From Clostridia bacterium (GTDB lineage: Bacteria; Bacillota; Clostridia; Oscillospirales; CAG-272): a stretch of DNA of 45,041 nucleotides. The position numbers and the translations under genes are program-made. Positions 17,196 through 35,100 of this stretch are shown here, piece by piece (within the stretch, counting starts at the first letter, position 1; every line of letters starts with the position of its first letter). The stretch lies in NCBI GenBank assembly GCA_017444735.1, contig JAFSWB010000015.1:1-45041 (forward strand). The letters are read 5' to 3'. The notes beneath the pieces are model-generated. The model was not told the origin of the DNA and did no database searches. It was given only the letters and a program-made list of their open reading frames with translations.

Positions 17196-18200
17196 TCTTG
17201 ATTCGATTGAAGAATCCGCGAAATCGAGCACGAGGCGGAGAAAATCGGGATCGAGCTCGTTAGCCCGCGCCCGGTCGGGCTCCTCTCCCTCGAACGAGTT
17301 GACGTACTCCGCCGCTTCCTTCGTCAGCCACGGCGTGGAGTGCTCTCCCCGCTCGCCGCCCGCCTCGATAAAGACGGCGCGGCCGTCCCCGATCTCTTCA
17401 CGGTATCTCATTAAACTCACGTCGCCGGGAACGGTGTCGTCGGAGTCGCCCCCGACGATCATGACCGGCGTCTCCGACCGGATTATCGCCTCGTGCGCCT
17501 CCTCGTCGGAGCCGGGGCCGAACGCGATAAAGTTCCCGAGGAGCATGAACGGGTATTCGATATCGGCGAGAACGCCGACGCGCGCTCTTGCGTGATACAT
17601 CATCGTCTCGGACGGCTTGTCGAAGCCCGATATCAGGATCGCTCCCGATATCCCGTCTCTTCCGAGCGCGCACGCGGCGGCGTACGCCCCCGCGCTGTGG
17701 CCGAAAAGGACGGTCTTCATTCCCGAGAGCCCGGGATCGCTCTCTCTGCAGTCGAGAAAAGCGAAGAGATCGGCTCTCACCTGCGGCAGTCCCCTCACGC
17801 CGCGCCCCTCGCTCTCTCCCACTCCCGTCGCGTCGTACGTCGCGACAGCCCAGCCGTCGTCATAAAACGCCCTGATATGCGGCAGATGGACGTCGGAGCC
17901 GTTCTTGATCCCGTTGACGATCACGAGGAGCCCCTTCGGGTCCTCGGGCCGATAGAGATATCCGCGAAGAGTATTGCCCCCCGACGTGAACGAAAACGCC
18001 GTCCGGGGGTACGCCTCCGCATCGGCGTCGGAATAACGGAGAGAGAAGCGCGTTCCGCCGTCGCACCGCCCGAAAAGGACGGCGGGAGCTATCGCCGTCG
18101 CGGCGGCGGAGACAAAGAGATAAAGGGCGAGTACGATGAGAACGACCCGGCCGACGCGAGCGAGCGAGGATATTTTCTTTTTTTCTTTTTCTTTTTTCAA
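17193..18200 (-). CDS. Membrane-anchored alpha/beta hydrolase
   Basis: The 335-residue protein has a basic N-terminus, one membrane span (about 15-37) and an alpha/beta hydrolase domain facing outward. Triad candidates are Ser in FGHSAGAY, Asp in VGGDSDDTVP and His in RGEHSTPW. LLVIVNGIKNGSDVHLPHI provides the oxyanion strand. The substrate is unknown (an ester or lipid is likely for this lysophospholipase-like class). It uses TTG as start, with ATAAGGTAACAG before it, four bases after the upstream stop. The stop codon lies at the edge of mobile element B. Last gene of the minus-strand block. Confidence 0.8.
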   Translation of the reverse strand: MKKEKEKKKISSLARVGRVVLIVLALYLFVSAAATAIAPAVLFGRCDGGTRFSLRYSDADAEAYPRTAFSFTSGGNTLRGYLYRPEDPKGLLVIVNGIKNGSDVHLPHIRAFYDDGWAVATYDATGVGESEGRGVRGLPQVRADLFAFLDCRESDPGLSGMKTVLFGHSAGAYAAACALGRDGISGAILISGFDKPSETMMYHARARVGVLADIEYPFMLLGNFIAFGPGSDEEAHEAIIRSETPVMIVGGDSDDTVPGDVSLMRYREEIGDGRAVFIEAGGERGEHSTPWLTKEAAEYVNSFEGEEPDRARANELDPDFLRLVLDFADSSIESR

Positions 18201-19096: not shown

Positions 19097-20071
19097 TTAC
19101 GGGTTATCCCCGTTAAAACGTGAATCAAGATCTTCGATATATTTTATCACAGCGTCGTCGTATTTCTCCCTGTTGTTTATCCTGATGCGGGAGTGCTTTC
19201 CGCGGTCGAACCAGACGATCCGCTTCGGCGCCTTACACTTGTCGTAAAGGAGTTCCGCTTTCTCGGGGAGAGAGTACTGGTCCTCTCTGCTGTGGAGAAA
19301 GAGGATCGGTTTTTTGAGAAGCGATATGCGCTTTACGGGACCGTCCGTCACGACGTTCGCGCCGGAGATCGCCCAAATATGGAGCATGACGCCGTGAAGG
19401 ATCGGAAACTGCCTCCTGTCGGGGCGGTCCTCCCTCATGTGATTGACGAACGACTCGTAAAAGTTGACGTACATCCCCTCGACGCCGATCGAGTCGACGT
19501 AATCGGGGCATTTGTCGCTGACCGCCGTAAAGAGAGCGGTCGACGCGCCGATGCAGATGCCGAAAAGAGTTATTTTTCCGACGCCGAAATCGTCGTGCAG
19601 CATACGGCTCCACTCGATCACGTCGCGGTACTCGCGGTAACCGAGCGACGAGATTTTCCCGTCGGATTCGCCGTGAGCGCGGTTGTCGATGACGAGGACG
19701 CTGCACCCCGCCCGTCTGAACGGCTCCGCGAAGAAATAGGAGTAGAGAAGGGATTCCATCCTTCCCGAGATTATTATCACGGCGCGGTCGCCGCCGAAGT
19801 CGAAATACTCGCCCGCGAGGCGGAGCCTGCCGCTTTTGACGGAGACGACCGTCTTCTTCTCCCGCCATTTCTCCTCCCACGCGAGCCCCTCGTCGAACAT
19901 CCGTCTGTATTCCTCGTCGTCGGGGATGCTGCACTCGCGTCCCCACTTCTTTTTGCTGTTCCTTACGAGAAGGACGGAGTAAAGGACGTACGACATAACG
20001 AGGACAGGGAAGAGAAAGAGGAAGAGAAACGCCCCGACGAGAGCGAGGATAAGGATCACATACCACTCCAT
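19097..20071 (-). CDS. Membrane-anchored alpha/beta hydrolase with Cys in the nucleophile position
   Basis: The 324-residue protein has an N-terminal span (about 5-35) then an alpha/beta hydrolase fold. VLVIDNRAHGESDG is the usual strand-turn; the nucleophile elbow reads FGICIGAS, GxCxG where most members have GxSxG. Asp is likely in LHSREDQYS and His in DRGKHSRI. Cysteine at this site is known in dienelactone hydrolases. Position downstream of fakA with an eight-base gap and GAGG site suggests the same transcript. Confidence 0.78.
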   Translation of the reverse strand: MEWYVILILALVGAFLFLFLFPVLVMSYVLYSVLLVRNSKKKWGRECSIPDDEEYRRMFDEGLAWEEKWREKKTVVSVKSGRLRLAGEYFDFGGDRAVIIISGRMESLLYSYFFAEPFRRAGCSVLVIDNRAHGESDGKISSLGYREYRDVIEWSRMLHDDFGVGKITLFGICIGASTALFTAVSDKCPDYVDSIGVEGMYVNFYESFVNHMREDRPDRRQFPILHGVMLHIWAISGANVVTDGPVKRISLLKKPILFLHSREDQYSLPEKAELLYDKCKAPKRIVWFDRGKHSRIRINNREKYDDAVIKYIEDLDSRFNGDNP

Positions 20072-20078
20072 AGGCGCC

Positions 20079-21704
20079 TCACACGATACCGACGATCAGG
20101 GGATATATCTTCTGACCGCCTTCGATCACCGCGACGTCCATCATCGGATAACGGGCGGTGATCGCGTCCTCGAGCGCGGAGCACGCCTCGTCGGTCACTC
20201 CCTCGCCGCGGAAGACGACGCACGTCTCGCGGTCCCCGATCCCGTCGACGAGGCGGAGCGCGTCGGTCAGAGCGGCGATCGGATCGGACGCGACGCACGT
20301 CAGCTCGCCGTCCTGAAGGACGATCTCGTCGCCTTTCTTACAGCTTATTTCGCGGTAGCTGTAATCTCTCGACGCCGTCGCCTCCGAGAGCGTCACGACG
20401 CCGTCGATCCCGCGCTTCATCTGCGTTACGCGGCGGGCGACGTCGGTGCTGTCGCCGATATCCATGGCGAGAGCGAAATAGCCCTCGGCGACGCTTTCCG
20501 TCGGAAGAACGGTGACGGAGAGCCCTTCGAGCAGCTTCGCCGCCTGCTCGGCCGCGCGGATAACGTTTTTGTTGTTCGGAAGGATGACGATCTCGTCCGC
20601 ATTTATGGCGGAGGCGGCGTCGACGAATTCCTTCGAGGACGTGTTCATCGTTTCGCCGCCGTCGATGACGGCGTCGCATCCGAGCTCGGAGAACGTCTTT
20701 TTCATCCCCTCGCCGTTCGCGACGGCGATGAAGGCGAGCGGCTTTCTCTTTCCTTTCCTGACGTGCTCGTTGTGCTGGACCTGCATATTTTCGAGCTTGA
20801 ACGTCAGAAATTCGCCGTATTTCTGCGAAATGTGTATTATCGGAGCCGGCGTGAGCGTGTGGATATGGACCTTCACTCTCATTCCGTCGCGCACGCAGAC
20901 GATCGAGGTCCCGCGCTTTTTCAGCGAGGCGATATACCGGTCGAGGTCGAACGGCTTGTCGGCGCGGCTGTCGTTCATGAGCTGAAGGACGTACTCCATA
21001 CAGTACCCGTCGGTGAAGACGCTGTCTTCGTTGAAGAGGGAGTAGTCGACCGTTTTCTTTTCCTCCGGGATCTGCTTCCCGGGGTCGATATACTCGCCGA
21101 AGAGGTATTTGAGCATCCCCTCGAAAATCAGGATGAACCCGTACGCTCCGCTGTCGACGACGCCTGCGTCCTTGAGGACGGGGAGCATTTCCGGCGTCAG
21201 GGCGAGCGTCTTTTTCATCTCGGCGACGTACATCGAAAGGAGCGTGTCGATCGTCGTCGACCGTCCGATCTGAGAGCGGATGTGCTCGATCCCCTCGCGC
21301 GATACGGAGAGGATCGTCCCCTCGACCGGGTGGATGACCGACTGATACGCCGTGCGGTAGCCGCGGATGAGACCGTTCCTCAATTCACCCGGACCGAGAA
21401 CGGAGCACCGCGAAAGCTCGGTCGAGAAGCCCTTGAAGAACTGAGAGAGGATAACGCCGGAGTTTCCGCGCGCGCCGAGAAGCATCCCGTCGCTGAGCGA
21501 TTTCAGATAATCGCCCGCGTCGTCGTTCGCCTTTACGCTGTCGAGCGCGTGGCCGAGAGTCATTCTCATATTGCTTCCCGTGTCGCCGTCCGGGACGGGG
21601 AAGACGTTGAGACGGTTGAGCTCCTCTTCGTTTTTCACGAGGTTGGAAAAGCCGTTCCGGAGCATACCGTCGAGGTTGATACCGTTTATCTTTCTTGTCG
21701 GCAT
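20079..21704 (-). CDS. fakA: FakA-like fatty acid kinase (DhaL/YloV domain)
   Basis: The 541-residue protein opens with INGINLDGMLRNGFSNL and the DhaL ATP-site motifs NVFPVPDGDTGSNM and LLGARGNSGVILSQ, then DAGVVDSGAYG, a middle domain with VKVHIHTLTP and a C-terminal DegV-like domain. Length and order match FakA, which phosphorylates FakB-bound fatty acids to acyl-phosphate for phospholipid synthesis by PlsX/PlsY. A DegV/FakB gene lies two genes upstream. A small hairpin (ATCCGCGC/GCGCGGGAT) lies in the 58-base gap before it. Confidence 0.88.
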   Translation of the reverse strand: MPTRKINGINLDGMLRNGFSNLVKNEEELNRLNVFPVPDGDTGSNMRMTLGHALDSVKANDDAGDYLKSLSDGMLLGARGNSGVILSQFFKGFSTELSRCSVLGPGELRNGLIRGYRTAYQSVIHPVEGTILSVSREGIEHIRSQIGRSTTIDTLLSMYVAEMKKTLALTPEMLPVLKDAGVVDSGAYGFILIFEGMLKYLFGEYIDPGKQIPEEKKTVDYSLFNEDSVFTDGYCMEYVLQLMNDSRADKPFDLDRYIASLKKRGTSIVCVRDGMRVKVHIHTLTPAPIIHISQKYGEFLTFKLENMQVQHNEHVRKGKRKPLAFIAVANGEGMKKTFSELGCDAVIDGGETMNTSSKEFVDAASAINADEIVILPNNKNVIRAAEQAAKLLEGLSVTVLPTESVAEGYFALAMDIGDSTDVARRVTQMKRGIDGVVTLSEATASRDYSYREISCKKGDEIVLQDGELTCVASDPIAALTDALRLVDGIGDRETCVVFRGEGVTDEACSALEDAITARYPMMDVAVIEGGQKIYPLIVGIV

Positions 21705-21762
21705 AAATAAGGAGGTCCTTTTCGGTTTGATGGAGCTGTTTATCCCGCGCGGGAGCGCGGAT

Positions 21763-23118
21763 TTATCTGTCCTTTTCTTCCTTTCCCATCCGGCGGACGG
21801 TCTTCGGGAGAACGAAGGTGAGAGCGAACGCGACGAGCATCGCCGCGGCGCAGATGAGCGTCATCCAGACGATCAGGGAACCGCCCGCGCCGTCGCCCTT
21901 GAGACCGGTGAGAACGGGACCGGTGGCGATCCCGGCGGCGACCGCCGAGAAGAGGCCCTGAACGGCGAAGTACATCGCCGAATTCGAGTGTCCGGTCCTC
22001 GCCTCCTCGTCGGCGGCGAGCTGAGACGGGACGGAATATGCGACCGCGAAGAGCGATCCGATCGAGAAGGACGAAATGAGCCCCGCGACGACGGCGGCGA
22101 CCGTTTTGACCGTCCCGCCCGCGAGACACGAGACGCCGAACATCGCGATCATACCGACCGCGTACGTCAGGAGCGTGTAGCGGAACGCGACGCCGAAGCC
22201 GTGACGCCGCAGGATCCTATTGTAGATCATCAGCGTGAACGGCACGGGTGCGAAGCAGCAGGACATCACGATCATCATACTCATCCCGGTCTTTGAGAAA
22301 TACTCGTTGATACCGCCGAGGAAGAGCTGGACGCCGAACGTCATAACGGCGTAAACGCACATCCAGATTATGAAATCGCGGTTTTTGAACGTGTAGCCCA
22401 TCGACTTCAGGATGCTGATCTTCGGCTCGACCTCGACGCCCGACGGATCGGCTCGCAGGTCCTTTTCCTTTATCATGAACATCGGGATCAGCATAAGAAG
22501 CGAGAGCGGAAGGACGATCATCGCGACGACGCGGATGTTGAGCCCTTTCAGGAGCGCCGCGACGAGAACGTAGCCGATTATGAAATAGAAGATATCGAAA
22601 ACGCTCTTCGCGTTCGAGACGAGCGTTCTGTCGCGCTCGTTTTCGATGAACTCGGTGAACGTCGCGTAGTACGAGACCATCGTCAGCGTGTACGTCGTGT
22701 AGAAGAGACAGAGGATAACGCCGTAATATACGGTGTTGAGCACTGTCGCCTGACCGTGGATCGGCGTCACGAGGGTGAACAGCGCGTACGTGACGATGAC
22801 GCCGCACAGACCGACGAGGATCGACGGACGTCTTCTGCCGAAGCGGGTGCGGAGGTTGTCGGAGATCGACGCCATCGGGATGTCGATGACGCCGTCGAGG
22901 ATCTTCGCGATCAGCGCCATTACCGCCCAGAGCCCGAATGCCCCGGGAATGACGAGATTCGTCCCCTCGAACGTCTGATAAGGGATAGCCGCCTCTCCAA
23001 ATCCGCCGACGATAAGGGCGGAGCAGAGATAGGAGCCCATCATCGTGTTGAGAAGATTGACGCCCATTCCGGACGCCGCGTAGAGGATCAGCCTGCCTCT
23101 TCCCTTGATCTTGTTCAT
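21763..23118 (-). CDS. GPH/MFS family transporter
   Basis: The 451-residue protein has twelve predicted membrane segments. ISDNLRTRFGRRRPSILVG is the characteristic loop between spans 2 and 3 of the glycoside-pentoside-hexuronide (MelB-type) cation symporters, preceded by AKILDGVIDIP. The substrate is unclear: members carry sugars, but relatives of this branch also flip lipids (MFSD2A). Given the neighbours, lipid or acyl-product transport is worth considering; this is inference. The start follows GAGAGGG, three bases after the fakB-like stop. Confidence 0.85.
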   Translation of the reverse strand: MNKIKGRGRLILYAASGMGVNLLNTMMGSYLCSALIVGGFGEAAIPYQTFEGTNLVIPGAFGLWAVMALIAKILDGVIDIPMASISDNLRTRFGRRRPSILVGLCGVIVTYALFTLVTPIHGQATVLNTVYYGVILCLFYTTYTLTMVSYYATFTEFIENERDRTLVSNAKSVFDIFYFIIGYVLVAALLKGLNIRVVAMIVLPLSLLMLIPMFMIKEKDLRADPSGVEVEPKISILKSMGYTFKNRDFIIWMCVYAVMTFGVQLFLGGINEYFSKTGMSMMIVMSCCFAPVPFTLMIYNRILRRHGFGVAFRYTLLTYAVGMIAMFGVSCLAGGTVKTVAAVVAGLISSFSIGSLFAVAYSVPSQLAADEEARTGHSNSAMYFAVQGLFSAVAAGIATGPVLTGLKGDGAGGSLIVWMTLICAAAMLVAFALTFVLPKTVRRMGKEEKDR

Positions 23119-23121
23119 TCG

Positions 23122-24057
23122 TCAGCCCTCTCTGTTCAGGAAGTTTTCGAGGATCGCCCGTTCGCGCGACAGATCCTTTGAGATGGGAGTCCCCGTGTAG
23201 TAAGCCGCCATAAGGCCGGGACCGATGTTGATCCCGCACGACGGGAACACGTCGTTTATATAGACCGCCTTCGGGTGAAATTTCTCCTCGATCAGACGTT
23301 TGTACTCCTCCGCCTGCGGAAGACGGTTCGTCTGAGCGATGAAGAAGATCTGCTCCTCCGGCCGCTCCACGGTGTTCTCGATGTAGTTGAGGAGCGCGGC
23401 GTACGCAGTCTTCGCCCCCTTGACCTTGCCGATGACGGTCGTCAGACCGTTGTAGTCGAATTCTCCGATCGGCTTGACGCCGGCGAGCGTCCCGAAGAAC
23501 GCCTTCGCGTGGGTGAGACGGCCCTTCTTCGCGACGAAGGAGAGGTCGTCGAGCCATCCCGCCTGATGGAAGCGGTTTTTGTTCTCTTCGAGGTAAGCGA
23601 CCGTCTCGGAGAGCGTTTTTCCCTCCGCTCTCTTCATTGACGCGTATATTACCATAAGACCGAACCCCGGTCCGAAGCGGAGAGTGTCGAGAACGTATAT
23701 CTCGGCGTCGGGGTATTTCTCCGCGACCTCGTTCTTCGCGGCGCAGGCAAACCCGTACGCGCCGGAAATGCCGCTCGAGATCGTCATCGCGAGGACGGGA
23801 ACGCCGTCCTTCGCGCATTGCTCGAACCGCTCGGCGAATTCCGCCGTGTTCGGCGGAGACGTCGTATACCCGTCGGGATTCTTTTTGAGATCGGCGTAGA
23901 AGTCCTCGCGGGAGACGGTGTCCCAAGACAGGAAAGCGGGGATCTCGGACCCGTCGGGGTATTTCAGGTGGCCGGGGACGGTGACGACGTCGTATTCCTC
24001 CCGGAATTTCGCTCCGAGGTCGCAGCTTGCGTCGGCGATGATTTCAAAGGTTTTCAT
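23122..24057 (-). CDS. fakB: DegV/FakB family fatty-acid-binding protein
   Basis: A 311-residue protein starting MKTFEIIADASCDLG (start chosen for CAGGAG seven bases upstream; a longer in-frame start lacks a site). DegV motifs follow: YTTSPPN, LAMTISSGISGAYG, VLDTLRFGPGFGLMV, GVKPIGEFDYNG. FakB presents bound fatty acid to FakA for phosphorylation, so this protein and the fakA-like gene form a plausible pair. It sits between a hydrolase and a transporter, which suggests that released acyl chains are its ligand. Confidence 0.88.
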   Translation of the reverse strand: MKTFEIIADASCDLGAKFREEYDVVTVPGHLKYPDGSEIPAFLSWDTVSREDFYADLKKNPDGYTTSPPNTAEFAERFEQCAKDGVPVLAMTISSGISGAYGFACAAKNEVAEKYPDAEIYVLDTLRFGPGFGLMVIYASMKRAEGKTLSETVAYLEENKNRFHQAGWLDDLSFVAKKGRLTHAKAFFGTLAGVKPIGEFDYNGLTTVIGKVKGAKTAYAALLNYIENTVERPEEQIFFIAQTNRLPQAEEYKRLIEEKFHPKAVYINDVFPSCGINIGPGLMAAYYTGTPISKDLSRERAILENFLNREG

Positions 24058-24058
24058 A

Positions 24059-24997
24059 TTATAACTCCTGTCGTGAATTTGCTTTGTCAAGGAAGGAGAG
24101 CAGCTTCTCCTTAAGCTCCGCGCCTCCCGCGGGGAAAGCGACTCCGTGCTGTCCCGTCTCGGGGACTGCCATCTCTTTTTCCGAGGCGCACGCCCCGAAG
24201 TTTTCCGTTCCCTCGGAGAGCGGGACGGTCCTGTCTTCCTTCCCGTGTATGAAGAAGACGGGGACGGACGCGCGCCGGAGCGCGTCGGGGGCGCTTTTTC
24301 TGATGCTGACGCCGAATTTCGCCTTTGCGTAAAGGCCGATCCACGGCATCATAAGAGAGCCGGGGAGACGGCGCCTTCCGCACTCCGTCATAAGCTGTTT
24401 TTTCGGGGAGGAATACCCGCTGTCGACGACGAGCGCCGTGACCGACTCGGGATCGAACCGGTCGGCGACCGACGAGACGGCGAAAGCGCCCATCGAGAGC
24501 CCGTAAACGACGATCTTTTTCGCCCCGAGCGTCTCCCTCGCGTATTCCGTCCATTTTATGATATCGTCGCCCTCGAGAAGACCGAGGGTCGAATTTTTGC
24601 CGCCCGATCCGTCGTGACCGCGCTGACGGATGAAGAGAAGAGAGTAACCGTTCTCCGCCATCATCCGTCCCTGAATGGGAAAATTGATCTTCGGGGACGC
24701 GCGGTATCCGTGGCAGAAGACGACGACGCGGTCGGACGTCCCGACGACGAGGTCCGCGCCGAGGCGCGTCCCGTCGCGCGCCGTGATCTCAACGCGCCGG
24801 GGGTTTTTCGATTCAATGAAGTTGTAGGCGGCGATCATCTCGCCGAGGTACGGGGTGAAGCGCGGATCGTCCTTCGAGCCGTCCGATCCGAGCGGAGCCA
24901 TTTTGGCAAAGATGAAGTGCGCCGCGGTGAACGCGGGGCCCACGATGAAAACGGCGTACAGGAGGACCGCCGCGGCGGCGATATACAGCGCGATCAC
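24059..24997 (-). CDS. Membrane-anchored alpha/beta hydrolase
   Basis: The 312-residue protein has an N-terminal span (about 3-30), then VVFCHGYRASPKINFP, FIRQRGHDGSGG and the nucleophile elbow YGLSMGAFA (Ser); acid in HGKEDRTVPL and His in TGQHGVAF. This is the BD-FAE/CocE-like hydrolase type seen as YqkD-like proteins. It could release acyl chains from lipids or from carrier-bound intermediates; unproven. GTG start overlaps the stop of the LRAT-PPTase gene. Confidence 0.85.
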   Translation of the reverse strand: MIALYIAAAAVLLYAVFIVGPAFTAAHFIFAKMAPLGSDGSKDDPRFTPYLGEMIAAYNFIESKNPRRVEITARDGTRLGADLVVGTSDRVVVFCHGYRASPKINFPIQGRMMAENGYSLLFIRQRGHDGSGGKNSTLGLLEGDDIIKWTEYARETLGAKKIVVYGLSMGAFAVSSVADRFDPESVTALVVDSGYSSPKKQLMTECGRRRLPGSLMMPWIGLYAKAKFGVSIRKSAPDALRRASVPVFFIHGKEDRTVPLSEGTENFGACASEKEMAVPETGQHGVAFPAGGAELKEKLLSFLDKANSRQEL

Positions 24998-26034
24998 GGG
25001 GCGCCTCCCTCGACCGGCTCGGGGTCGATAAGGCGGATCGCGCCGCCCTCCTCACGGAAGACGAGTACCCTCTCCGAACGGTCGCCGCATACCGAGACGA
25101 CGACGTCGCCGACGCGGTACGTGACGGCGCGGCAAGCCGTCGTATCGACGGCGGACGGGGAGAACGATCCCTTTCCGGTCCTTTTGAATTCCGCTTCCTT
25201 TCTCGTCCAGCAGACGAGGAACGAAGACGGATCGGCCGCGTATTTTTCCTTTTCTTTTTCGGTGAAGAAGCGTTCGCGGAGCTTTTCCGCTTTCTCCCCT
25301 CCGAATTTCCGGTCGAAGTCGGAGACGCTCTCGGCGTCGATCCCGACGGGTCCGTTCGAGACCGCGACGGCGACCGCGCGTCCGGTGTGGGAGAGGGAGA
25401 AGTCGAAGCCGTCGGCGCACCAGCGGCCCTGGGAGGTCTTTCTGAATCTCACGTCGGAGATATCGACGCCGAGGGATCGGCGAAGGGCTTCTCCGAGCAG
25501 CTTCCAATCGGTAAACTTCGCCGCTTTCAGCGACGCGCTGCGGCAGGAGGCGATCTCCTCGCCGCGCTCGGGCGGCGCGACGGGGGCGTACTCCGGGTCG
25601 TCCGGGATCGGGGCGAGGTAGACGTCGCAGATCGGACGGGAGAGCCATCTTTTCCGCGCCTCTTCCTCCACGGAGCACCGGCTGACGCCGAACGCGCACT
25701 CGTTGACGAAGTGCTCGCAGTTGTTGTGGATTATGTTGTAGCCTGTCTCGCCGAGACGGGCGCGCGCCGCGGCGACCGTCTTTTTGGGCGAGCGTTTTCC
25801 GATCTTTTCGCGGAGCGTGTATTCAGCCCGCTCGATTATCGACCCGCACGAGAACGTGTCGGCGTCCGTCGCCGTGACGGTCAGCCTTTCGGGGCGGTCC
25901 CGGTATTCGGGAACGGGCGGCAGCCCGAACGCGATTATTTCGTCTTCCGAGACGAAGACGCCGTAGTGACGGATCGACCCGATCCTGACTCTGACGATAT
26001 CGCCGTACCGGCACTCTCCGGGACGCCACTTCAT
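24994..26034 (-). CDS. LRAT-like domain fused to Sfp-type phosphopantetheinyl transferase
   Basis: The 346-residue protein joins two enzymes. Residues 1-125 are an NlpC/P60-superfamily LRAT domain: His23 in IRHYGVFV and Cys106 in HNNCEHF are the catalytic pair. LRAT-type proteins move acyl groups from phospholipids via a Cys thioester. Residues about 165-335 are a phosphopantetheinyl transferase: SLSHTGRAVAVAV, GIDAE (Asp233, Glu235) and WTRKEAEFK (Trp277, Lys279, Glu280). This half would prime the carrier proteins encoded beside it. Start and stop overlap both neighbours by four bases. The fusion is continuous, with no frameshift signal. Confidence 0.85.
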   Translation of the reverse strand: MKWRPGECRYGDIVRVRIGSIRHYGVFVSEDEIIAFGLPPVPEYRDRPERLTVTATDADTFSCGSIIERAEYTLREKIGKRSPKKTVAAARARLGETGYNIIHNNCEHFVNECAFGVSRCSVEEEARKRWLSRPICDVYLAPIPDDPEYAPVAPPERGEEIASCRSASLKAAKFTDWKLLGEALRRSLGVDISDVRFRKTSQGRWCADGFDFSLSHTGRAVAVAVSNGPVGIDAESVSDFDRKFGGEKAEKLRERFFTEKEKEKYAADPSSFLVCWTRKEAEFKRTGKGSFSPSAVDTTACRAVTYRVGDVVVSVCGDRSERVLVFREEGGAIRLIDPEPVEGGAP

Positions 26035-26276
26035 CCGAGTTTATTCCCTATGTACGTGACGACGTCGCCGAGCGTCGCAAAATCGCCGACGCCGACGTCG
26101 TCAAAGCGGATGCCGAATTCCTCCTCGATCGCGATGACCATATAGAGCATACTGACGGAGGAGAGGCCGACGTCCGTCATGAGGTTCGACTCCTCCGTGA
26201 CGGAGACGGGAGCGGTCCCGTCTCCCGCGGAGGCGAGGATACCGCGCAGTTTTTCGATTATTTCTTCTCTCTTCAT
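26031..26276 (-). CDS. Acyl carrier protein
   Basis: The 81-residue, acidic, four-helix carrier aligns with AcpP: DVGLSSVSMLYMVIAIEEEF corresponds position by position to the E. coli helix-II region. Ser40 is the phosphopantetheine site. The usual Asp before it (DSL) is Ser here (SSV). Overlaps the upstream acyl ligase and the downstream phosphopantetheinyl transferase by four bases each, so the ligase, carrier and priming enzyme are made together. It is likely a dedicated secondary-metabolism carrier, not the housekeeping AcpP. Confidence 0.92.
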   Translation of the reverse strand: MKREEIIEKLRGILASAGDGTAPVSVTEESNLMTDVGLSSVSMLYMVIAIEEEFGIRFDDVGVGDFATLGDVVTYIGNKLG

Positions 26277-27799
26277 GAAAACTTCTTATACCTCACGATC
26301 TTCATCGCCGGCGTTCTCTCGAAGTCGGTCTCCCTGACGGTGATACGGCTGACGCGCGAGAACGGAGGAAGCGTTTCGTTGATCTTTTCGAGCTCCGCGA
26401 CGATAAACGCTCCGCGTTCCTCGGGAGCGACGCCGGAAAGTTCCGACAGACGGGGAACGACCTCGAGCGCGAGGATGCGCCCGCCGAGCTCGTTCTCGTC
26501 CTCGAATACCTGCGAGTCCTGAATGAACGGAGCCGCGTTGAAGCGCGCCTCGACCTCGGCGGGGGAGACGTTCTCTCCGCTCGGGAGAACGATGATCTCC
26601 TTCGTCCGTCCGGTGATGTACAGATATCCGTCCTCGTCGATCCGGCAGAGGTCGCCGGTCCTGAACCATCCGTCCTCGTACGCATCCTCTCCGGCGCCGC
26701 CGACGTAGCCGAGCATCATATTGCGGCCCTTCAGGAGCAGCTCGCCGTCGTCGTTGACGCGGATCGACTGATGCGGGAACGGGATGCCGACCGACTCCGG
26801 CTTCGACACGCTCTCGGGGTTGCCCGAGACGAGGTTCGCCGACTCGGTGAGGCCGTATCCGGCGAGGAGCTTGACTCCGATCTTGTCGTATTCCCCGATG
26901 AGGAACGGAGAGACGGGGGCGGCGCCGCAGATTATCGTTTTAAGGTCGTCCCCGAGCATATTTTTTCCGAATTTCCGCGACAGGTTGAGCGCCATTTCCG
27001 CGAGCGCCGGGACCATTACCATGATCGTGGGGCGGAAGACGGCGACGTCGCGGAACATATCCTTGTTGTTGCGGCAGATAAAGAGCGTGCTCCCCGTGTA
27101 GAGAGACGTCATGAGATTCCTTATGAGCCCGAAGACGTGAGTCAGCGGGAGGATGAGAAGGTATCTCTGACCGAAGACGTCGGGATAGCCGTAGCACCCG
27201 TTGACGGTCCCCTGCATAACGGCGTCGTTCGAGAGGACGGCGCCCTTGCTCTTTCCCGTCGTGCCTCCGGTGAAGACGACGGCGCACGGGTCGTCGGGCG
27301 ACGCGGAGACGGCGTCCGCCGCCTCGTCCGCGGCGTCGTCGGTCTTTATGAGGGCGACGTCGGGGCGGCGCTCCCTCACGACCGCGAGGCGGTCCGCGAG
27401 GGATCCGTCGTATACGATCGCTCCCGTCTCCGTTATCATCGAACAGCCGAAGACGGTCGGGGCGTCGAGGTGGGGCGGGAGGGCGACCGCGGCGTGACCG
27501 GACGTCACGGCGGCGATGAACGCCTTCACGAATCCGTATGAATTCGGGGCGAGGATACCGATCTTTTTATCCTTCGGGATATCCGAGAAGAGCGCGCGCA
27601 TCCGGGCGGCGTCCTCCTCGAGGCGGGCGAACGTGACCGTCTCATCGCCGTCGATCACGGCGACGCGGTCGGCGTATCCGAAAATACAGTTCTGCCACAT
27701 CTCCGTGACGGTCCCGTATTCGCGGATCTTCTCGAACTGCTCCGCGTCGGTGTACTTTCTGAACAGATCTCTTGTCTCAAAATCGTAGTATTTCGGCAT
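26273..27799 (-). CDS. Acyl-adenylate-forming ligase (AMP-binding)
   Basis: The 508-residue ANL-family enzyme has a canonical phosphate loop FTGGTTGKSKG (177-187), LPLTHVFGL, GYGLTESANL, GWFRTGDLCRID, TGRTKEIIVLPSGENVSP and the catalytic Lys500 in TPAMKIVRYK. It should activate a fatty or aryl acid as acyl-AMP. Adjacent genes suggest loading onto the acyl carrier protein downstream rather than CoA, but the acceptor is inference. The ATG follows AAGGGAG. Confidence 0.88.
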   Translation of the reverse strand: MPKYYDFETRDLFRKYTDAEQFEKIREYGTVTEMWQNCIFGYADRVAVIDGDETVTFARLEEDAARMRALFSDIPKDKKIGILAPNSYGFVKAFIAAVTSGHAAVALPPHLDAPTVFGCSMITETGAIVYDGSLADRLAVVRERRPDVALIKTDDAADEAADAVSASPDDPCAVVFTGGTTGKSKGAVLSNDAVMQGTVNGCYGYPDVFGQRYLLILPLTHVFGLIRNLMTSLYTGSTLFICRNNKDMFRDVAVFRPTIMVMVPALAEMALNLSRKFGKNMLGDDLKTIICGAAPVSPFLIGEYDKIGVKLLAGYGLTESANLVSGNPESVSKPESVGIPFPHQSIRVNDDGELLLKGRNMMLGYVGGAGEDAYEDGWFRTGDLCRIDEDGYLYITGRTKEIIVLPSGENVSPAEVEARFNAAPFIQDSQVFEDENELGGRILALEVVPRLSELSGVAPEERGAFIVAELEKINETLPPFSRVSRITVRETDFERTPAMKIVRYKKFS

Positions 27800-27811
27800 A
27801 TCGGGTCTCCC

Positions 27812-28450
27812 TTATACCAGCGTTTTCAAAAATTCTTCCTTGTCGCGCACTTCGCGGGCGATCTTTTCGATCGTCGCGAAGGACGGGGCTTCCGCGTATT
27901 CGGCGGCGACGTCGATCGGCTCGCCGATCGCGAACCGCGCTCTCTGCCACACGCTCTTTCTCGGCTTGACGTAGACGGGGACGATCGGGACCTTCGCCCG
28001 GAGCGCCATCAGCGCCATCCCGGATTTGAACGCGCCGAGCTCGCCCGTTTTTTCCTCCTCGGCGATGCGCCCCTCCGGGAACATCGAGACGAGCGACCCC
28101 TCGAGAAGAGCGTCCGTTATCGCGCGAAGGGAGGAGACGTTGAAATTCTCCCTGTCGATCGGGATGCAGAGGAACGCCCGGAACAGAAGGCGCGCGCGGG
28201 ACTCGAAAAACTCCTTCCCGCAGATGAAACGGTGGCGTCTGTACCACACGGCGAACATCACGTAGAGCGGATCGAAAAATCCGTAGTGGTTCGCCGCGAC
28301 GAGCGCGCCGCCCCTGATCCTCTTTTTCGCCTTTTCCGATTCGTATACCCATTTCGGCCTGAAAAGGAGAAGACCGGGCAGCCCCGCGGTGAGCTTGACG
28401 AAATCGTAAAACAGATACCTCGGCGAGAACAGCTTATTTTTTTTCTTCAT
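27812..28450 (-). CDS. PlsC-like acyltransferase 1
   Basis: The 212-residue protein of the glycerolphosphate acyltransferase family has NHYGFFDP (His-x4-Asp catalytic motif), then CIPIDRENFN and FPEGRI substrate motifs. PlsC uses acyl-ACP or acyl-CoA to acylate lysophosphatidate. It lies between a second PlsC-like gene and an acyl ligase and overlaps the former by 17 bases. Two divergent copies suggest a specialised acceptor or chain type. Confidence 0.88.
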   Translation of the reverse strand: MKKKNKLFSPRYLFYDFVKLTAGLPGLLLFRPKWVYESEKAKKRIRGGALVAANHYGFFDPLYVMFAVWYRRHRFICGKEFFESRARLLFRAFLCIPIDRENFNVSSLRAITDALLEGSLVSMFPEGRIAEEEKTGELGAFKSGMALMALRAKVPIVPVYVKPRKSVWQRARFAIGEPIDVAAEYAEAPSFATIEKIAREVRDKEEFLKTLV

Positions 28451-29075
28451 TGAGCTTGTTTTCCAGTTCGATTATCCGCTCCCGGAGCTTCCGGGAGACG
28501 TTGATGAGGTCTTCTTTTTCTCCGGCGTTTTTGTCGGAGAGACAGCGGACGTCGATCGGCTCGCCGATCATGACGTGCGCTCTCTTCCTTCCGAAGTACG
28601 AGCCGTCCGTCACGACGGGTATCACCGGGACGCCGGAGCGGAGCGCGATGAACGCGGCGCTCGTCTTGAATTCGAGCGGCCTTTCCTCGCCGGGGCGCGG
28701 CAGGCGGCTCTCCGGGAAGATGCCGACGACGCCTCCGCGGCGCAGGATGTCCTCGGACTTCGCGACGAAGGAGAAATTGAACCCGTCGCGGTCGACGAAG
28801 ATTCCGCCGAGCATCCTGAGAAAGAGCCCGAGAAATCTTTTTTTGAACAGGACCTCCGCCATCTGGAAGCGGAGCGTCCGCGAGAAGAAGACGAACATCC
28901 AGACCGCGTAGTCGAAGACGGACGTGTGATTCGAGATTATGATCGCCGGACCCCTGATCCGCCGGGAGCACTTTTCCGTTTCGCGGTGGATCTTCGTGCG
29001 GAAGCAGAAGAACTGAACGGGCCAGCCGGTGATCTTGACGAAGGCGGTAAAGAGCCGAATAAGCAAATCAGACAC
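28434..29075 (-). CDS. PlsC-like acyltransferase 2
   Basis: A protein of 213 residues with NHTSVFDY (His-x4-Asp), GGIFVDRDGFN and FPESRL; the common FPEG has Ser in place of Gly, an atypical third motif. GTG start overlaps the stop of the upstream ligase-carrier gene. Roughly similar in length and order of motifs to its neighbour, but diverged strongly, consistent with an old duplication or separate recruitment. Confidence 0.86.
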   Translation of the reverse strand: MSDLLIRLFTAFVKITGWPVQFFCFRTKIHRETEKCSRRIRGPAIIISNHTSVFDYAVWMFVFFSRTLRFQMAEVLFKKRFLGLFLRMLGGIFVDRDGFNFSFVAKSEDILRRGGVVGIFPESRLPRPGEERPLEFKTSAAFIALRSGVPVIPVVTDGSYFGRKRAHVMIGEPIDVRCLSDKNAGEKEDLINVSRKLRERIIELENKLNEEKK

Positions 29076-30987
29076 CCCCGGAACGAGTTATATACTCCGA
29101 GAGGGAGCGGACGGTCACGGGACCGCTTTTCTCCTCCCCGGGCATCGGCACGCCGAATTCCGAGGTGATCGCGGTCATCATGGCGAAATAGTCGATGCTC
29201 GTGCCTCCGCAGTCGAGGAAGAAGTCGGCGTCCGGCGCGATCTCTTCGTCCTCTCTGCCGAGCGCCGCGGCGAAATGAGTCCTGACTCGGGCGGCGAGGG
29301 CGTCGAGCTCTCCGCCGTCGTCCCTGTCCGTGAGGCGCTTTTCGGGGAGCTTGCCGTCGCGATACTCCGCCGAAAGCCGTCTGCGGTTGAGCTTGAATTC
29401 GTCGGCGTTGAGAAGAGGCGCCGTGATATACGCGACGCGGCTTATCATGGACGAGAGGCCCGAGGAGGCGATCTTTTCCCTCGTTTCCGCGTCGATCGCG
29501 GAGAGTTTTTCTCTCGTCGCGAAGGGACCGACCTCGACGAGGAGGACCGTTTTTTCGCCGTCCGGCGTCGGAACGCCGACGAGACAGACGCGGGGCGATC
29601 CCGACGGGGCGACGAGAGGCTCGATAAGGTTCGGGTTGAGGTTTTCGCCCTCCGGTCCGACGATGAGATCGTCGCGCCGTCCCTCGATCCTGTAGTGACC
29701 GTCCTCGCACACGGCGAGATCGCGGGTGGAGAACCAGCCCTCCGTCTTCTTTTTGACCCCGCCCTCGATGATATACCGGGCGACGACGCCTCCCCTGACG
29801 AGGAGCTCGCCGTCTTCGCCGATCCTGTATTCCGCGTTCTTCATCGGCTCGCCGACGAAGCGGCCGAGAAGGTATTTCTTCTTTCCGGACGTCTCAAACG
29901 ACGTGATCCCGATCTCTGTCATTCCGTACCCGTCGGCGAGACGGTAACCGACGGCGTTGAAGAAGCGCATTACCCCTGCGGGAACGGCGGAGCCGCCCGT
30001 TATCATGAAGCGGACGCTGTCGCCGAAGAGATTGTCGCGCACCTCGCGGAAAGCGACGCGCGAGAACGCCCGCGAGACGCCGTCCGGGAGCTTTTCCCAG
30101 AGTCTGACGGCGCGGAGGAACTTATTTTCGGTCTTTTCCCCGCGCGCTTTTATCGTTTTCATGGCCGCGGAGTACGTTTTTTCCCAGAAGAGGGGAACTG
30201 CGAAGATATGGGTGACGCGGTGGCGTCTTATCGTGTTGACGATCGTCTCCGGCGAGAGGTCCGCGAGGTGGACGAACGTGCGCGAGAAAAAGGCGAACCA
30301 GATATAGACGGCGATGAGGCCGAAGACGTGGTAAAACGGAAGAAAATCGAGGAGCTTGAGCGAGCCGCCGCAGTGCTTCTTGACGACGCGGCACCGCTTT
30401 ATAAGGTCGGCGCTCCCGATGATCTGACAGTAGAATTCCTCCGCCGTGAACGCGCAAATTTTGACGTTTTCGGTCGTGCCGGAGGACATGACGAGGATCT
30501 CTCCGCCGAAATCGCCGGGCTCGACGGGCGCCCCGGCGGAAAGAGACGCCGGGTCGACGCGGAGAAGACCGAAATCGCGCTTTTCCGAGATGACGGCGGA
30601 GGCGCCGACGGTCCGGAGCGCGTCCCGGAGCGTCCCGTCGGGGAGACGCAGATTGAGGAGGAGGGGGGAGAACCCGGCGGCGAGCGCCGCCCAGAACGAC
30701 TCGATCCAAAGGAGAGAATTCTCCATACAGAGCCCGATCACGCCGCCCTCGCGGCCCGGAAGCGCGGCGCGGAGCGCGCCCGCCATGACGAGTATCCTGT
30801 CGCGCGACTCGCCGTACGTCGTCTTTTTTATGCGGTAGCCCTCGCTCGCCTCGTACATGATGTTTTCTCTTTCCGAGAACATGAGGTCGAACATCGTCGC
30901 GAAGGTCTTCGGCGAGGAGGCGAAACGGGCGAGCTTTGCGTTTACGTAGGCGTTGATCGTTTTATACCCGCCGAGGCCGTAATCCAT
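29068..30987 (-). CDS. Adenylate-forming enzyme with C-terminal carrier domain
   Basis: The 639-residue protein has an ANL domain (about 20-550) and a carrier domain (about 560-635) with DCGGTSIDYF, Ser597 being the phosphopantetheine site. Adenylation motifs include GYGMTEIG and EGRRDDLIVGPEGENLNP, and a Lys in DEFKLNRR. Two motifs are atypical: the phosphate loop reads SSGTTENVK (168-176) instead of SGTTGxPKG, and the TGD motif reads STRDL. Start chosen for GGAG eight bases upstream and for the promoter; earlier in-frame ATGs are too near the predicted transcription start. First gene of the operon. Confidence 0.85.
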   Translation of the reverse strand: MDYGLGGYKTINAYVNAKLARFASSPKTFATMFDLMFSERENIMYEASEGYRIKKTTYGESRDRILVMAGALRAALPGREGGVIGLCMENSLLWIESFWAALAAGFSPLLLNLRLPDGTLRDALRTVGASAVISEKRDFGLLRVDPASLSAGAPVEPGDFGGEILVMSSGTTENVKICAFTAEEFYCQIIGSADLIKRCRVVKKHCGGSLKLLDFLPFYHVFGLIAVYIWFAFFSRTFVHLADLSPETIVNTIRRHRVTHIFAVPLFWEKTYSAAMKTIKARGEKTENKFLRAVRLWEKLPDGVSRAFSRVAFREVRDNLFGDSVRFMITGGSAVPAGVMRFFNAVGYRLADGYGMTEIGITSFETSGKKKYLLGRFVGEPMKNAEYRIGEDGELLVRGGVVARYIIEGGVKKKTEGWFSTRDLAVCEDGHYRIEGRRDDLIVGPEGENLNPNLIEPLVAPSGSPRVCLVGVPTPDGEKTVLLVEVGPFATREKLSAIDAETREKIASSGLSSMISRVAYITAPLLNADEFKLNRRRLSAEYRDGKLPEKRLTDRDDGGELDALAARVRTHFAAALGREDEEIAPDADFFLDCGGTSIDYFAMMTAITSEFGVPMPGEEKSGPVTVRSLSEYITRSGGV

Positions 30988-31068: not shown

Positions 31069-31241
31069 TATTCAGAAGCGTAACGCACTTTAATTATATT
31101 ATTCTTGACGCGGAAGTATTTTCCGGGTCTTTGTCCGCTCCTCCGGCTCGTTTTTCCGGGCGCGGGATTTACCGCGCGCCGAAGGATCGAGCGAATCATT
31201 CCGCGTTCCGCGCGCCGCGCCCCGCAAGGGATCTCGGCGGG

Positions 31242-31270
31242 TTGAATTGTTCTTCGATTTATGGTACAAT
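31242..31270 (+). promoter_or_regulatory. Sigma-A promoter of the lipoprotein gene
   Basis: TTGAAT, 17-base spacer, TACAAT with an extended -10 TG, divergent from the acyl-operon promoter. Confidence 0.7.
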
Positions 31271-31304
31271 TAAAAGACAATATCATCCGGAGGGATCATC
31301 TTTT

Positions 31305-32048
31305 ATGAAAAAGACACTGACGCTGACGGCGGCGGCCGCCGTCCTTCTGGCGTTTATATCGGGGTGCGCGCGAACGTCCTCTCCGGGATCGCTCGAGACC
31401 GCCCCGTCGATCTTCACGAGCGCGGAAACGGAAACGGCGTCCGTGACGGAAACGGAGACCGGGACCGAGCCGACCGACGAGACGGACGCCGGGACGGAAG
31501 AGACCGCGAAGGCGAGCGACTTCGTCTGGAAGCGCGACGCGGACGGCAAAGTCTGGCTCGACGCTTACGTCGGAGTCTTCTCCTACGTCGCCGTTCCGGC
31601 GACGGTCCCCGAAACGGGCGAGGAAGTGACCGGGATCGACGCCTGGGCGTTCAGGGACAACGCGAACCTCAAGAAGGTCGTCATTCCCGAGGGAGTGACC
31701 GAGATCGGAAAGGGCGCGTTCATGTACTGCGCCGCGCTCGAGGAGGTCAAGCTCCCCTCCTCTCTCAAAACGCTCGGCTCGCAGGCGTTTTACCGCTGCG
31801 AGAGTCTGAAGACCGCGACGGTCCCCGAGGGCGTGACGGAGCTCGACTACGCCCAGTTCATGCTCTGCACGTCGCTCACCGAGGTGAATCTGCCGTCGAC
31901 GCTCGCAAAGATCGGCGACGACGCTTTCTTCAGGTGCGACGCTCTCGTGACGATCAATTTCAGCGGGGGCTGGGACAAGTGGAACGCGATCGAATTCGGA
32001 AACAACGCGCTTCCGCAGTATTATCACTCGATAAACTGTCTGGGGTAG
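31305..32048 (+). CDS. BspA-like leucine-rich repeat lipoprotein
   Basis: The 247-residue protein has a lipoprotein signal (lipobox FISGC, Cys21), a Thr/Glu-rich linker (about 25-75) and about five LRR_5 repeats of the form IPEGVTEIGKGAFMYCAALEE. These domains are common surface modules of gut Clostridia that mediate adhesion or protein contacts. The ATG follows CGGAGGG. It lies directly ahead of the SLH gene, whose start is 69 bases downstream, so the two may be co-transcribed. Confidence 0.9.
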   Translation: MKKTLTLTAAAAVLLAFISGCARTSSPGSLETAPSIFTSAETETASVTETETGTEPTDETDAGTEETAKASDFVWKRDADGKVWLDAYVGVFSYVAVPATVPETGEEVTGIDAWAFRDNANLKKVVIPEGVTEIGKGAFMYCAALEEVKLPSSLKTLGSQAFYRCESLKTATVPEGVTELDYAQFMLCTSLTEVNLPSTLAKIGDDAFFRCDALVTINFSGGWDKWNAIEFGNNALPQYYHSINCLG

Positions 32049-32116
32049 CCCGGATTTTACCGACTTCGCCGTTTTTCTTTGAAGTTTCCCGATAAAGAAA
32101 AAAAGGAGAGACGAAA

Positions 32117-35100
32117 ATGGCAAAGAAAATCACAAGCTTGCTTCTCGCGGCGCTTCTGTTCTTCTCGCTCGCGCCGATGACGCTCGCGGCGACTCCCGCC
32201 GATTTCCGGGATATGCCCGCCGAGTCTCACTGGTCGTACGAGGCGCTCAGCTCCGCGATAGCGAACGGTCTTCTTAACGGCTCTGGCGGAAAGCTCTTCC
32301 CCGAGTCGAATCTGACGCGCGCCGAGATGGCGGCGATCGTAAACCGCGCGTTCGGCGCGACGGCGACGGCGGACATCAGCGCGTTCCGCGACGTGAAGAC
32401 GACCGACTGGTTCTACACGGACGTCGCGAAGGCGGTCAGAATGGGAACGTTCAACGGCTCCGGCGGAGGAAAGATGGAGCCGGACGACCCGATCCTGAGA
32501 GAGCAGGCGTTCACCGTCGTGTGGCGCGCGCTGAAGCTCGAACCGGGAGACGCGTCCGCTCTTTCGAAGTTCTCGGACGCCTCAAAAATATCCGACTACG
32601 CGAAGGGTCCGATCGCCGCGCTGGCGGCGGCGGGCTACGTCAACGGATCGGGCGGACGGGTCAATCCGACCGACACGATCACGCGCGAGGAATTCGCGCA
32701 GGTTTTCCATAACGTCATCAAGAAATACGTGAGGACGGCGGGCGAGGTCACCGGCGACGTCAAGGGCAACGTGATCGTCAACGCGCCCGGCGCGATCCTC
32801 ACGGGCATGAAGATCGACGGCGACCTCATCGTCGGCGAGGGAGTCGGCGACGGCGAGATCGTTCTCGACGCCGTCGAAGTGACCGGAAGAGTCGTCGTCA
32901 GAGGCGGAGGCGAAAACTCCGTAATTATAAAGAACGGCTCGACCGTCGGCAGTATCGTGATCGGCAAGACGGGCGACGGAGGCGTCCGCGTCCGCACCGA
33001 GGAGGGCTGTCGCGTCGAAGTTGTGACAGTCGACGACGGCGTCGACGAGATCATCCTCGAGGGCGAGCTAAACCAGGTCAGGATCGACACCGACACCCCC
33101 GTCGTGATCCGCGACGCGTCCGTGATCGGGCTCACCGTCTCGGCGAGCGGCGCGGACGTCACCGTCGAGGGAGACTCGAACGTTATCGCCGCCGAGATCA
33201 GGGAGGCGGCGAGCGGAGCCGCTCTGACGGTCGGCAAGGAAGCCGGTATCGGCGACCTCACGTCTTACGCCGAGAGCGCGGTCGTCGCGGGCGAAGGCAA
33301 AATCGCCACGGCGTCGGTCTCGGGCGACAACACCAGATTCGATATCGGCGGGACGCAGCTCACCGTCGCCGCGGGAACGGAGGGCGTCAGCGAGAACGGC
33401 GAGGCCGTCGCGGGCGGATCGTCCGTCCTGACCGGCGGCGAGCCGCCGCACGTCCACACGTGGGGCGAGGGCGTCGTGACGCGCGAGCCCTCCTGCACCG
33501 AGCCCGGAGTCAGGACATTTACCTGCGAATGCGGAGAAACGCGGACCGAGGAGATCCCCGCGCCCGGCCACGACTGGGACGAGGGAGTCGAGACGAGGGA
33601 AGCGACGAGAGAAGAGGACGGCATAATCACCTTCACGTGCCGCCGCTGCGGCGCGACGCGCGAGGAGCCGGTCTCCTACGCTCCGTACGTCGTTCTTGCG
33701 ACCGACGGGGAAGGACACTACGAACCGGTCTTCTGCCGCACGCTCGACGAGGCAATAGCCGAGGCGTCGAAATATCCGACTCACAACGAGCCCGGCGAGC
33801 CAGAGTGGACCGAGCACGTTCCGATCAATCTCTTCGGAGCGGACGTCATCGACAACGTCAGCATTCCGGCGGGCTATACTCTTACGGTAACGGGTGATCT
33901 CGCCCTCTCCGGATCGATCTCTCTCGGATCGTCCGACTATTCGTTCTGCCCCGGATGCGGCGCCGGAAGGATCCAGGTCATGCTCAAGGGCGATACGACC
34001 TTCTCCGTCAACGGCGTGACGTACTTCGACGGGGACGGCGCGGAGGACGGGCTCTTTACGACAAACGGGGGAGAGGACTCGCTGGCGCTCCTGACGATCA
34101 GCGGTATGCGCGCCGTCGATAAATCGGACGACCCGGACGACGAATATCTCTTCGCGAAGCCGTGGTTCTGCTTTGAGATCGCGCGCGGCGACCGGATCGA
34201 CTACACAATAAACGGCGACTTCGACCTGTCCGATTCGTTCGGAGGTCTCCTCGTCGAGAATGGAGTCGGAAAGGTCTTCGTAAAGGGCAGACTCGATATC
34301 AGTGAATTTAACCTGTGGGACGGCGAGGTCGTCTTCACGGGAGACGACGCCGCGCTCACCGTCTTCGGTCGGAAGATAGCGGGCACGACGGACGAATATT
34401 TGTATCACGTTACCGAAAAGGGCGATGACGGCGAGTGGTTCTCGTTCCTCCCGGACGGCAGCGCCATAACGGCGAAGGCGGTCACGATGACGGACGATGC
34501 GGAAGCGTGGAATATCGAGCTCAGGGGAACGGAAGAGGAAGGACTCGACTTCACGGTCGCGGACGGCGTGATCCTCACGGTGGGCCATAACGTCATGTTC
34601 GGTGAAAAAGTCAGAATAATAAACGACGGTTTGATCTCCGTCCGCGGACGGGAAAGCTTCGTCTTCGGCTCGCTCCTCAACCGCGGCGTCCTCCGCCTCG
34701 AGGTCGGAGAGGCGTCGTACGGGGGCGATTCATCCCTCATTTTCGAGGAGGGTTCTCTCCTCAGGAACGAAGGCGCGATCATGATCGGCGCGTCGGCGGA
34801 TGAGAACGGATGGAGAAGATCTCGTCTCACCGTCAACGGAACGTTTGAAAACGCCGAAGGCGCCGTCGTCGACGACCGCGGCGAGCTCGGCTTTTTCAGG
34901 GCGACCGTGACGAACGACGGTCTCATCGTGAACGGCTCCCTGACCGGGACCGGCGAGGGCTTCGACGGCGGACGCTCGGATCTGAGCGCTGAGGATTCGT
35001 CGATCGAAAACCGCGGCAGGATCGTCAATAACGGTCAGATGTTTTTTAACCGCGCCGGGTACTCTCAGACGGCGGACGCGAAGTTCGAGACTTACAACTC

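Follow-up and report, generated by a model that had tools for sequence, protein, structure and literature searches.

What does a bacterium do with an operon that seems equipped to activate fatty acids in two unrelated ways, to hold them on carriers of its own and to pass them to a lipid? The question is raised by eleven minus-strand genes at positions 19097–30987 of contig JAFSWB010000015.1 (Clostridia bacterium, assembly GCA_017444735.1), part of an analysed stretch of 45,041 nucleotides that we call the window. An initial annotation made from the letters alone had described a single operon in which an acid is activated, loaded on carriers and transferred to a membrane acceptor, and its gene content, layout and general flow are supported. 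We consider it likely that the operon activates fatty acids on dedicated carriers and that two PlsC-type enzymes transfer them to a lipid. More tentatively, we propose an accessory reacylation operon that works like the LplT–Aas system of Escherichia coli, taking lysolipid in and reacylating it from acyl-acyl carrier protein (acyl-ACP), and that is built of other parts.

Neither a gene order peculiar to this genome, nor promoters splitting the block, nor identity with a characterized cluster was found. The earlier statement that no described pathway has this set of genes also stands: no described pathway or cluster of this content appeared among the literature matches listed, a search whose scope excluded most subscription papers.

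Conserved gene order

In order of transcription the genes encode an adenylating enzyme with a carrier domain (A1), two PlsC-type acyltransferases (B, here PlsCa, and C, here PlsCb), a second adenylating enzyme (D), a free ACP (E), an LRAT domain fused to a phosphopantetheinyl transferase (PPTase; F), an alpha/beta hydrolase (G), a FakB-type binder (H), a GPH-type transporter (I), a FakA-type kinase (J) and a further protein of alpha/beta-hydrolase fold (K). Pfam and NCBIfam agree with the families first named, except that the LRAT domain and the PPTase are one protein of 346 amino acids (aa).

Conservation was assessed on one-genome-per-species contigs with A1 alone as the query, which returned 30 loci from Clostridia, Oscillospiraceae, Ruminococcus, one Lachnospiraceae and similar metagenome-assembled genomes, many of them from ruminants. 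Sixteen loci reach K, 12 are cut by contig ends and two are split. All 16 long-enough loci keep the order A-B-C-D-E-(F)-G-H-(I)-J-K on one strand and, because they were found through the first gene only, this agreement is more than chance. The visible genes of the 12 cut loci keep the order too. In the two split loci (L043, L044), A1 to F stand together and FakB, GPH, FakA and K lie elsewhere in the same genome on a second contig, whose end cuts FakB in L124; no G gene was seen in either half. Among the full loci, LRAT is missing from one (L039) and the PPTase is joined to it in five of 16.

Looser versions of the operon reveal which genes travel together. At E<=1e-70, A1 has matches in 23 of 394 genomes of the order, 16 of them close (E<=2.6e-116; the window's genome included). 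Apart from the window there are thus 15 close matches, and we read what surrounds A1 in 12 of them (all but G300, G338 and G387). PlsCa adjoins A1 or lies one gene away in 11 of these 12; in the twelfth (L089), A1 stands at the contig end. Seven stretches (L090–L093, L096, L098, L125) have the transporter as an immediate neighbour of A1. A reduced set, FakB-FakA-GPH-A1-PlsCa-K without D, E, LRAT and PlsCb, is found in L090, L092 and L093 and, up to the contig limit, in L091; G309 (L125) has a similar set with a weaker A1 match. Three neighbourhoods (L087, L094, L095) lack D at its usual position and carry a pair of FakB genes; PlsX lies inside the block in L087 and occurs also in G359, the genome of L095. 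Two PlsC domains form one protein in L088, and FakB, FakA and K stand together also in L126 and L127. These variants indicate that the transporter follows the A1–PlsCa pair and that FakAB follows K. Acyl-ACP may be supplied by D and E in some versions and by a second FakB with PlsX in others.

The seven more distant order-level A1 relatives (of 23; E above 1e-96) were not counted as operons, having no operon genes beside those read: profiles found no other operon gene near L079 or L081–L085, and L080 is a 3.9-kb contig. G865 (L086), outside these seven, gave no other operon gene either and is likewise uncounted. The relative in L079 (5924–9238), a frame of 1105 aa, joins AMP-binding and carrier domains to a class I/II aminotransferase domain and might be the start of a sphingolipid-like pathway.

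An accessory operon

The distribution of the operon is patchy and its status accessory. Of the family's 196 genomes, 12, from eight of its 71 genera, have a D match at E<=1e-120 (the window's genome included), a full-length relative of F is present in three of 11 other members of the genus, and A1 at E<=1e-70 is found in two of 398 phylum genomes, that of the window and one more. The A1 scans of order and phylum scored the best three candidates per genome. Four operon-bearing congeners have three Dak2 genes each and six, eight, ten and six PlsC-family matches; two congeners without the operon have one of each, and three more distant genomes have one Dak2 gene each and four, one and two PlsC matches.

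PlsX is present twice in operon-bearing congeners versus once in operon-lacking ones, the second copy lying outside the operon in a second lipid locus (L055, 6510–11431; also L052 and L054) that encodes FakA, FakB, a protein resembling E. coli YghO (E 1.3e-37), PlsX and an ACP. Within the genus this locus occurs in four of four operon-bearing genomes and none of four tested without the operon. We rejected it as an obligatory partner, as linkage is not strict over 60 genomes: it is found in 10 of 28 operon-bearing ones (recognized through a match to D or A1) and six of 32 others. In the A1 tree, genus g44 falls in three places and a genome of family f14 stands among the window's relatives. This is only suggestive of horizontal transfer, because the operon of G488 is on a 14-kb contig that may be mis-binned.

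Ligases, carriers and the LRAT–PPTase protein

A1 (29068–30987, minus strand like all genes of the operon; 639 aa) combines PF00501 with a C-terminal PF00550 carrier. Its Lys532 and Ser597, which we take to be the catalytic-type lysine and the carrier serine, are invariant in 17 rows. D (26273–27799, 508 aa; PF00501, E 2.4e-55) is followed by the free carrier E (26031–26276, 81 aa; PF00550). When profiles were scored against four E. coli ligases, D reached 156 bits with FadD, 99 with Aas, 85 with MenE and 39 with EntE; its highest score being with FadD, it fits a fatty acid as substrate.

F (24994–26034, 346 aa) joins PF04970 (54.6 bits, cut-off 24.3), which places it in the LRAT/PLAAT family, to an Sfp-type PF01648 domain. 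The LRAT-domain His23 and Cys106 are kept in 21 of 21 aligned rows, and all nine matches of its profile among solved structures are PLAAT/LRAT proteins (PLAAT3, E 2e-9). The second histidine of PLAAT, the third polar residue, aligns with Ala or Gln; a passage of PMC3142127 states that in LRAT this third residue may be dispensable. The PPTase half was considered as an enzyme dedicated to the operon and rejected, as it is the sole PF01648 match in G000, G001, G002 and G004 (some of these genomes being incomplete), where for this reason it is probably the general PPTase of the cell; G005 and G006 have a stand-alone one.

Might the LRAT domain instead acylate proteins or lipoproteins, as proposed for staphylococcal LnsA? 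A passage of PMC7387801 describes LnsA as an NlpC/P60 enzyme, remotely similar to HRASLS, that is needed for lipoprotein N-acylation. For this operon we hold such a role to be very improbable: the domain scans reported no CAAX/CPBP (LnsB-type) gene among the eleven, the LRAT domain is fused to a PPTase, an enzyme expected to be cytoplasmic, and the domain is absent from L039 and from the reduced versions.

The PlsC pair

PlsCa (28434–29075, 213 aa; PF01553, E 2.8e-21) and PlsCb (27812–28450, 212 aa; PF01553, E 4.2e-21) form sister clades apart from nine rows of local housekeeping PlsC, in a tree that omits L003, L021, L023, L026, L027, L035 and L045 as cut or redundant. The two clades group with the Aas domain at 94/82, a placement weakened by the long branch of Ec_Aas. 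PRK08633, a model of LplT–Aas type, is the best NCBIfam match of PlsCb (four of four), and AGP_acyltrn is best for both PlsCa (four of four) and housekeeping PlsC (three of three). Motif III reads FPE[SGA]R[LI] in 29 of the 30 PlsCa rows in which the pattern detected a motif, and 24 of 27 PlsCb rows show an FPEG form related to it. We gave little weight to the contrast with FPEGTRS of E. coli PlsC, which neither enzyme has, as only one of 10 housekeeping homologues has that form either.

The transporter

I (21763–23118, 451 aa) belongs to MFS_2 (PF13347, E 1.5e-29; 103.2 bits, cut-off 27) and falls below the NCBIfam gph cut-off for sugar symporters (48.9 versus 231.35 bits). Its alignment matches E. 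coli MelB in hhalign at E 1e-5, and a search with its sequence against solved structures gave nothing useful. In comparison with MelB, all 16 rows keep Asp55, Asp59, Thr121 and Tyr120, so that three of the five cation-site positions (Asp55, Asp59, Gly117, Thr121, Lys377) persist; Asp124, Trp128, Asp19, Arg149, Lys18 and Thr373 are not kept, and galactoside-site residues are replaced. Tyr120, Asp19, Arg149 and Lys18 are listed for roles in MelB that we presume. Those of Asp55, Asp59, Gly117, Thr121, Lys377, Asp124, Trp128 and Thr373 are given in passages of PMC8329300, according to which MFS_2 substrates span sugars to phospholipids, with MFSD2A as an example. The comparison thus allows, without proving, a lipid substrate. 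The initial annotation had the operon export or flip a product; a transporter is indeed encoded, and an importer or inward flippase is equally plausible. In L096 (9090–11048) and L098 (5144–7057) the MFS_2 transporter lies between A1 and PlsCa and is extended at its C-terminus by about 200 residues that match nothing in Pfam.

Fatty-acid kinase, hydrolases and a cysteine enzyme

J (20079–21704, 541 aa) carries the Dak2, middle and C-terminal domains of FakA and scores above the cut-off of TIGR03599; its DegV-type partner H (23122–24057, 311 aa; PF02645) does so for TIGR00762. NCBIfam equivalog scores stay below their cut-offs (FakA 351.9 versus 975 bits, FakB1 100 versus 350). The recycling of fatty acids was first ascribed to this pair; its subunits are extra copies in a genome that has others.

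G (24059–24997, 312 aa; PF00561/PF12146) has its serine in GxSMG. In K (19097–20071, 324 aa; PF00561), which is membrane-anchored, the corresponding box is G-x-C-I-G in 17 of 17 rows: the nucleophile is Cys173, aligned with the GFSMG-box serine of esterase 5g59, and Asp264 and His293 are invariant. A cysteine at this place is known from polyhydroxyalkanoate synthases and dienelactone hydrolases. The initial annotation counted K among the hydrolases, and with an invariant Cys nucleophile plain hydrolytic recycling is not its only possible role; K may be an acyl-transfer enzyme. Matches to K stronger than 1e-90 occur in five of seven operon-bearing genomes (G309, G322, G955–G957) among 27 tested; of the 20 without a known operon, 17 have no match at 1e-30 and three match at about 1e-34. 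A polysaccharide deacetylase-type gene (PF01522) adjoins K in L087 (7698–8561) and L094 (5373–6251).

A third hydrolase, L (17193–18200, minus strand, 335 aa; PF12146), is a recurrent neighbour, with relatives near A1 in 11 of 30 loci and beside operon parts in L062, L087, L095, L097 and L123. By a crude charge rule for the N-terminal helix, applied to stop-to-stop frames, the K domain is predicted to face inward in 17 of 17 rows and the L domain outward in 11 of 12, with one tie; G gave no clear result.

An outward-facing hydrolase could also serve broad scavenging, in which external lipids are hydrolysed and FakAB and the two ligases activate the released fatty acids for ordinary phospholipid synthesis. 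The three hydrolases, and the FakA, FakB and PlsX homologues in or near operon versions, would suit such a scheme. We nevertheless regard it as improbable, since the genomes have other FakA and PlsC genes and simple uptake would not need the operon set, and since the dedicated PlsC pair, the fused carrier and the cysteine enzyme are left unexplained.

Operon layout and surroundings

The eleven open reading frames fill 19097–30987, none with an inner stop. As first described, they overlap or are closely spaced: in gene order the spacings are -8, -17, 12, -4, -4, -4, 1, 3, 58 and 7 nt, five joins being overlaps of 4 to 17 nt and five being gaps of 1 to 58 nt. The start of FakB is probably the ATG at 24057 rather than the TTG at 24090.

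A single promoter for the whole block, as initially proposed, is likely. Upstream of A1 lies an extended -10 element, TGTTACAAT (31048–31040, minus strand), the only TGNTA[CT]AAT on that strand between 17000 and 31400; its last base is 52 nt from the first ATG (30987). With its poor -35, TGTTACAAT is absent from the output of a plain sigma-70 scan, which gave seven sites in the region versus 3.0 expected. Three of these are on the minus strand, those at 25862 and 20863 being weak and within the eleven genes and the third lying at 18200; no strong internal promoter was found.

Divergent from the operon, 31131–36916 encodes two proteins, one with leucine-rich repeats of BspA type and one of 1599 aa that contains three S-layer homology stretches. 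Farther on, at 38455–40100, lies the gene of an AAA_21-type ATPase of 372 aa, whose best PADLOC match is AbiLi (E 4.9e-37), followed by AriA; it overlaps a gene for 176 aa that has no match in Pfam or PADLOC. G+C falls to 0.43 at 39–42 kb, near a tRNA-Trp (41778–41852), and the ATPase and its neighbour may form a defence pair carried by a mobile island.

Possible reacylation or synthesis of a lipid

Putting these parts together, we suggest that A1 adenylates a fatty acid and loads its own carrier, that D does the same for the free ACP E, and that the PPTase half of F converts the carriers to the holo form. PlsCa and PlsCb would then pass acyl groups, at the cytoplasmic face, to a lipid acceptor, most likely a lysophospholipid or another partly deacylated lipid that transporter I might bring in or flip. 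FakB and FakA would turn freed fatty acids into acyl-phosphate, K, the cysteine enzyme kept with FakAB, probably shuttles acyl groups between activated forms and lipid, and the hydrolases G and L with the PLAAT-like LRAT domain could produce deacylated substrates or trim products. We take a cycle resembling LplT–Aas as the best specific reading because the smallest unit of the operon is a transporter, a ligase–carrier and a PlsC, and because the hydrolases, the PLAAT-like domain and FakAB fit deacylation and reacylation.

Several observations weigh against such a cycle. The transporter is missing from seven of the 16 full loci (L028–L031, L033, L049, L050), and no match at E<=1e-30 was found anywhere in those seven genomes, nor in G260, G300, G338 and G359. 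Its rows replace Gly117 and Lys377 of the MelB cation site in all 16 cases, and replaced galactoside residues are no proof that it carries a lipid. The A1 profile scores lowest of the four E. coli ligases with Aas (17 bits; FadD 63, MenE 62). Profiles of PlsCa and PlsCb prefer local housekeeping PlsC (47–66 and 57–80 bits) to the Aas domain (25 and 36), and PRK08633 scores overlap (67–73 versus 68–87 bits), housekeeping PlsC scoring nearly as high as PlsCb. Finally, K is not universal, with no match in G539 and one of only 5.5e-31 in G060.

The main rival is de novo synthesis of an undescribed membrane lipid, which we judge nearly as likely as the reacylation cycle. A1 and D would activate two acids, PlsCa and PlsCb would add them successively to an acceptor such as a polar headgroup, a glycolipid or an amino lipid, and the transporter, hydrolases and LRAT domain would flip or process the product. 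Two ligase–carrier sets beside two paralogous PlsC genes (fused in L088), a dispensable transporter and a patchy distribution, as for accessory products, all agree with this, as do the distant A1 relative fused to an aminotransferase and the dedicated ligase–ACP pairs that a passage of PMC9386255 reports from sphingolipid synthesis. Among the Pfam domains of the eleven genes, however, there is no headgroup-making, glycosyl-transfer or condensing enzyme; the sole headgroup-type gene seen is that of the deacetylase adjoining K, and this is confined to L087 and L094. Three hydrolases, the PLAAT-like domain and FakAB also fit turnover better than synthesis.

The reacylation reading can be carried one step further. 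Passages of PMC11416262 describe uptake and acylation of lysophosphatidylcholine in Gram-positive streptococci, suggest MFSD2A-like MFS carriers as possible agents and state that LplT–Aas has been identified only in Gram-negative bacteria. The operon might be the missing counterpart, a Gram-positive import–reacylation cycle with an MFSD2A-like MFS_2 carrier, a double acyl supply from dedicated carriers and FakAB acyl-phosphate, and K as a membrane-bound cysteine acyltransferase, a speculative extension that we think rather unlikely in this full form. In any case gut and rumen Clostridia here have a concrete, conserved candidate gene set, either for a Gram-positive lysophospholipid cycle or for a class of lipids that awaits description. 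A single operon unites two unrelated routes of fatty-acid activation, by a ligase with its carrier and by a kinase, and K, a conserved cysteine variant within a hydrolase family, stands out as a likely acyl-handling enzyme.

Comparison with known systems

Parts of several known systems recur in the operon. Like AasR–AcpR of bacterial sphingolipid synthesis, it has a ligase next to its own ACP (D–E) or fused to one (A1); unlike that pathway, it has no serine palmitoyltransferase among its eleven genes. The FakA–FakB kinase is represented by both subunits, side by side or one gene apart, with all three FakA domains; the operon copies differ in scoring below equivalog cut-offs, in being additional to another genomic FakA and in being fixed in one operon with acyl-ACP ligases. 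To PLAAT/HRASLS proteins of the LRAT family the likeness is one of profile and of the kept His and Cys, whereas the second His is replaced and the domain is fused to a PPTase in the window. The transporter shares with MelB its Pfam family and the Asp55, Asp59 and Thr121 equivalents and departs from it at Gly117, Lys377 and the galactoside residues; its likeness to the lysolipid carrier MFSD2A is that of MFS_2 membership.

The closest functional parallel is LplT–Aas, of which we do not consider the operon a member, because its transporter failed the comparison with E. coli LplT (hhalign probability 2.5; 3.1 bits in a profile search) and is of the MFS_2 family. The operon also differs in having its carrier fused to the ligase instead of a shared ACP, and in keeping ligase and PlsC as separate proteins whose profiles are not closest to Aas, although the PlsC tree grouping points the other way. 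It adds FakAB, LRAT, hydrolases and a cysteine enzyme, and its hosts are Clostridia rather than Gram-negative bacteria. What the two have in common is an acyl-ACP-forming ligase and a PlsC-type transferase beside a major facilitator transporter: PlsCa stands next to A1, whose domains suggest that it loads its carrier, and in its smallest form, transporter, ligase–carrier and PlsC, the operon would combine the same three functions.

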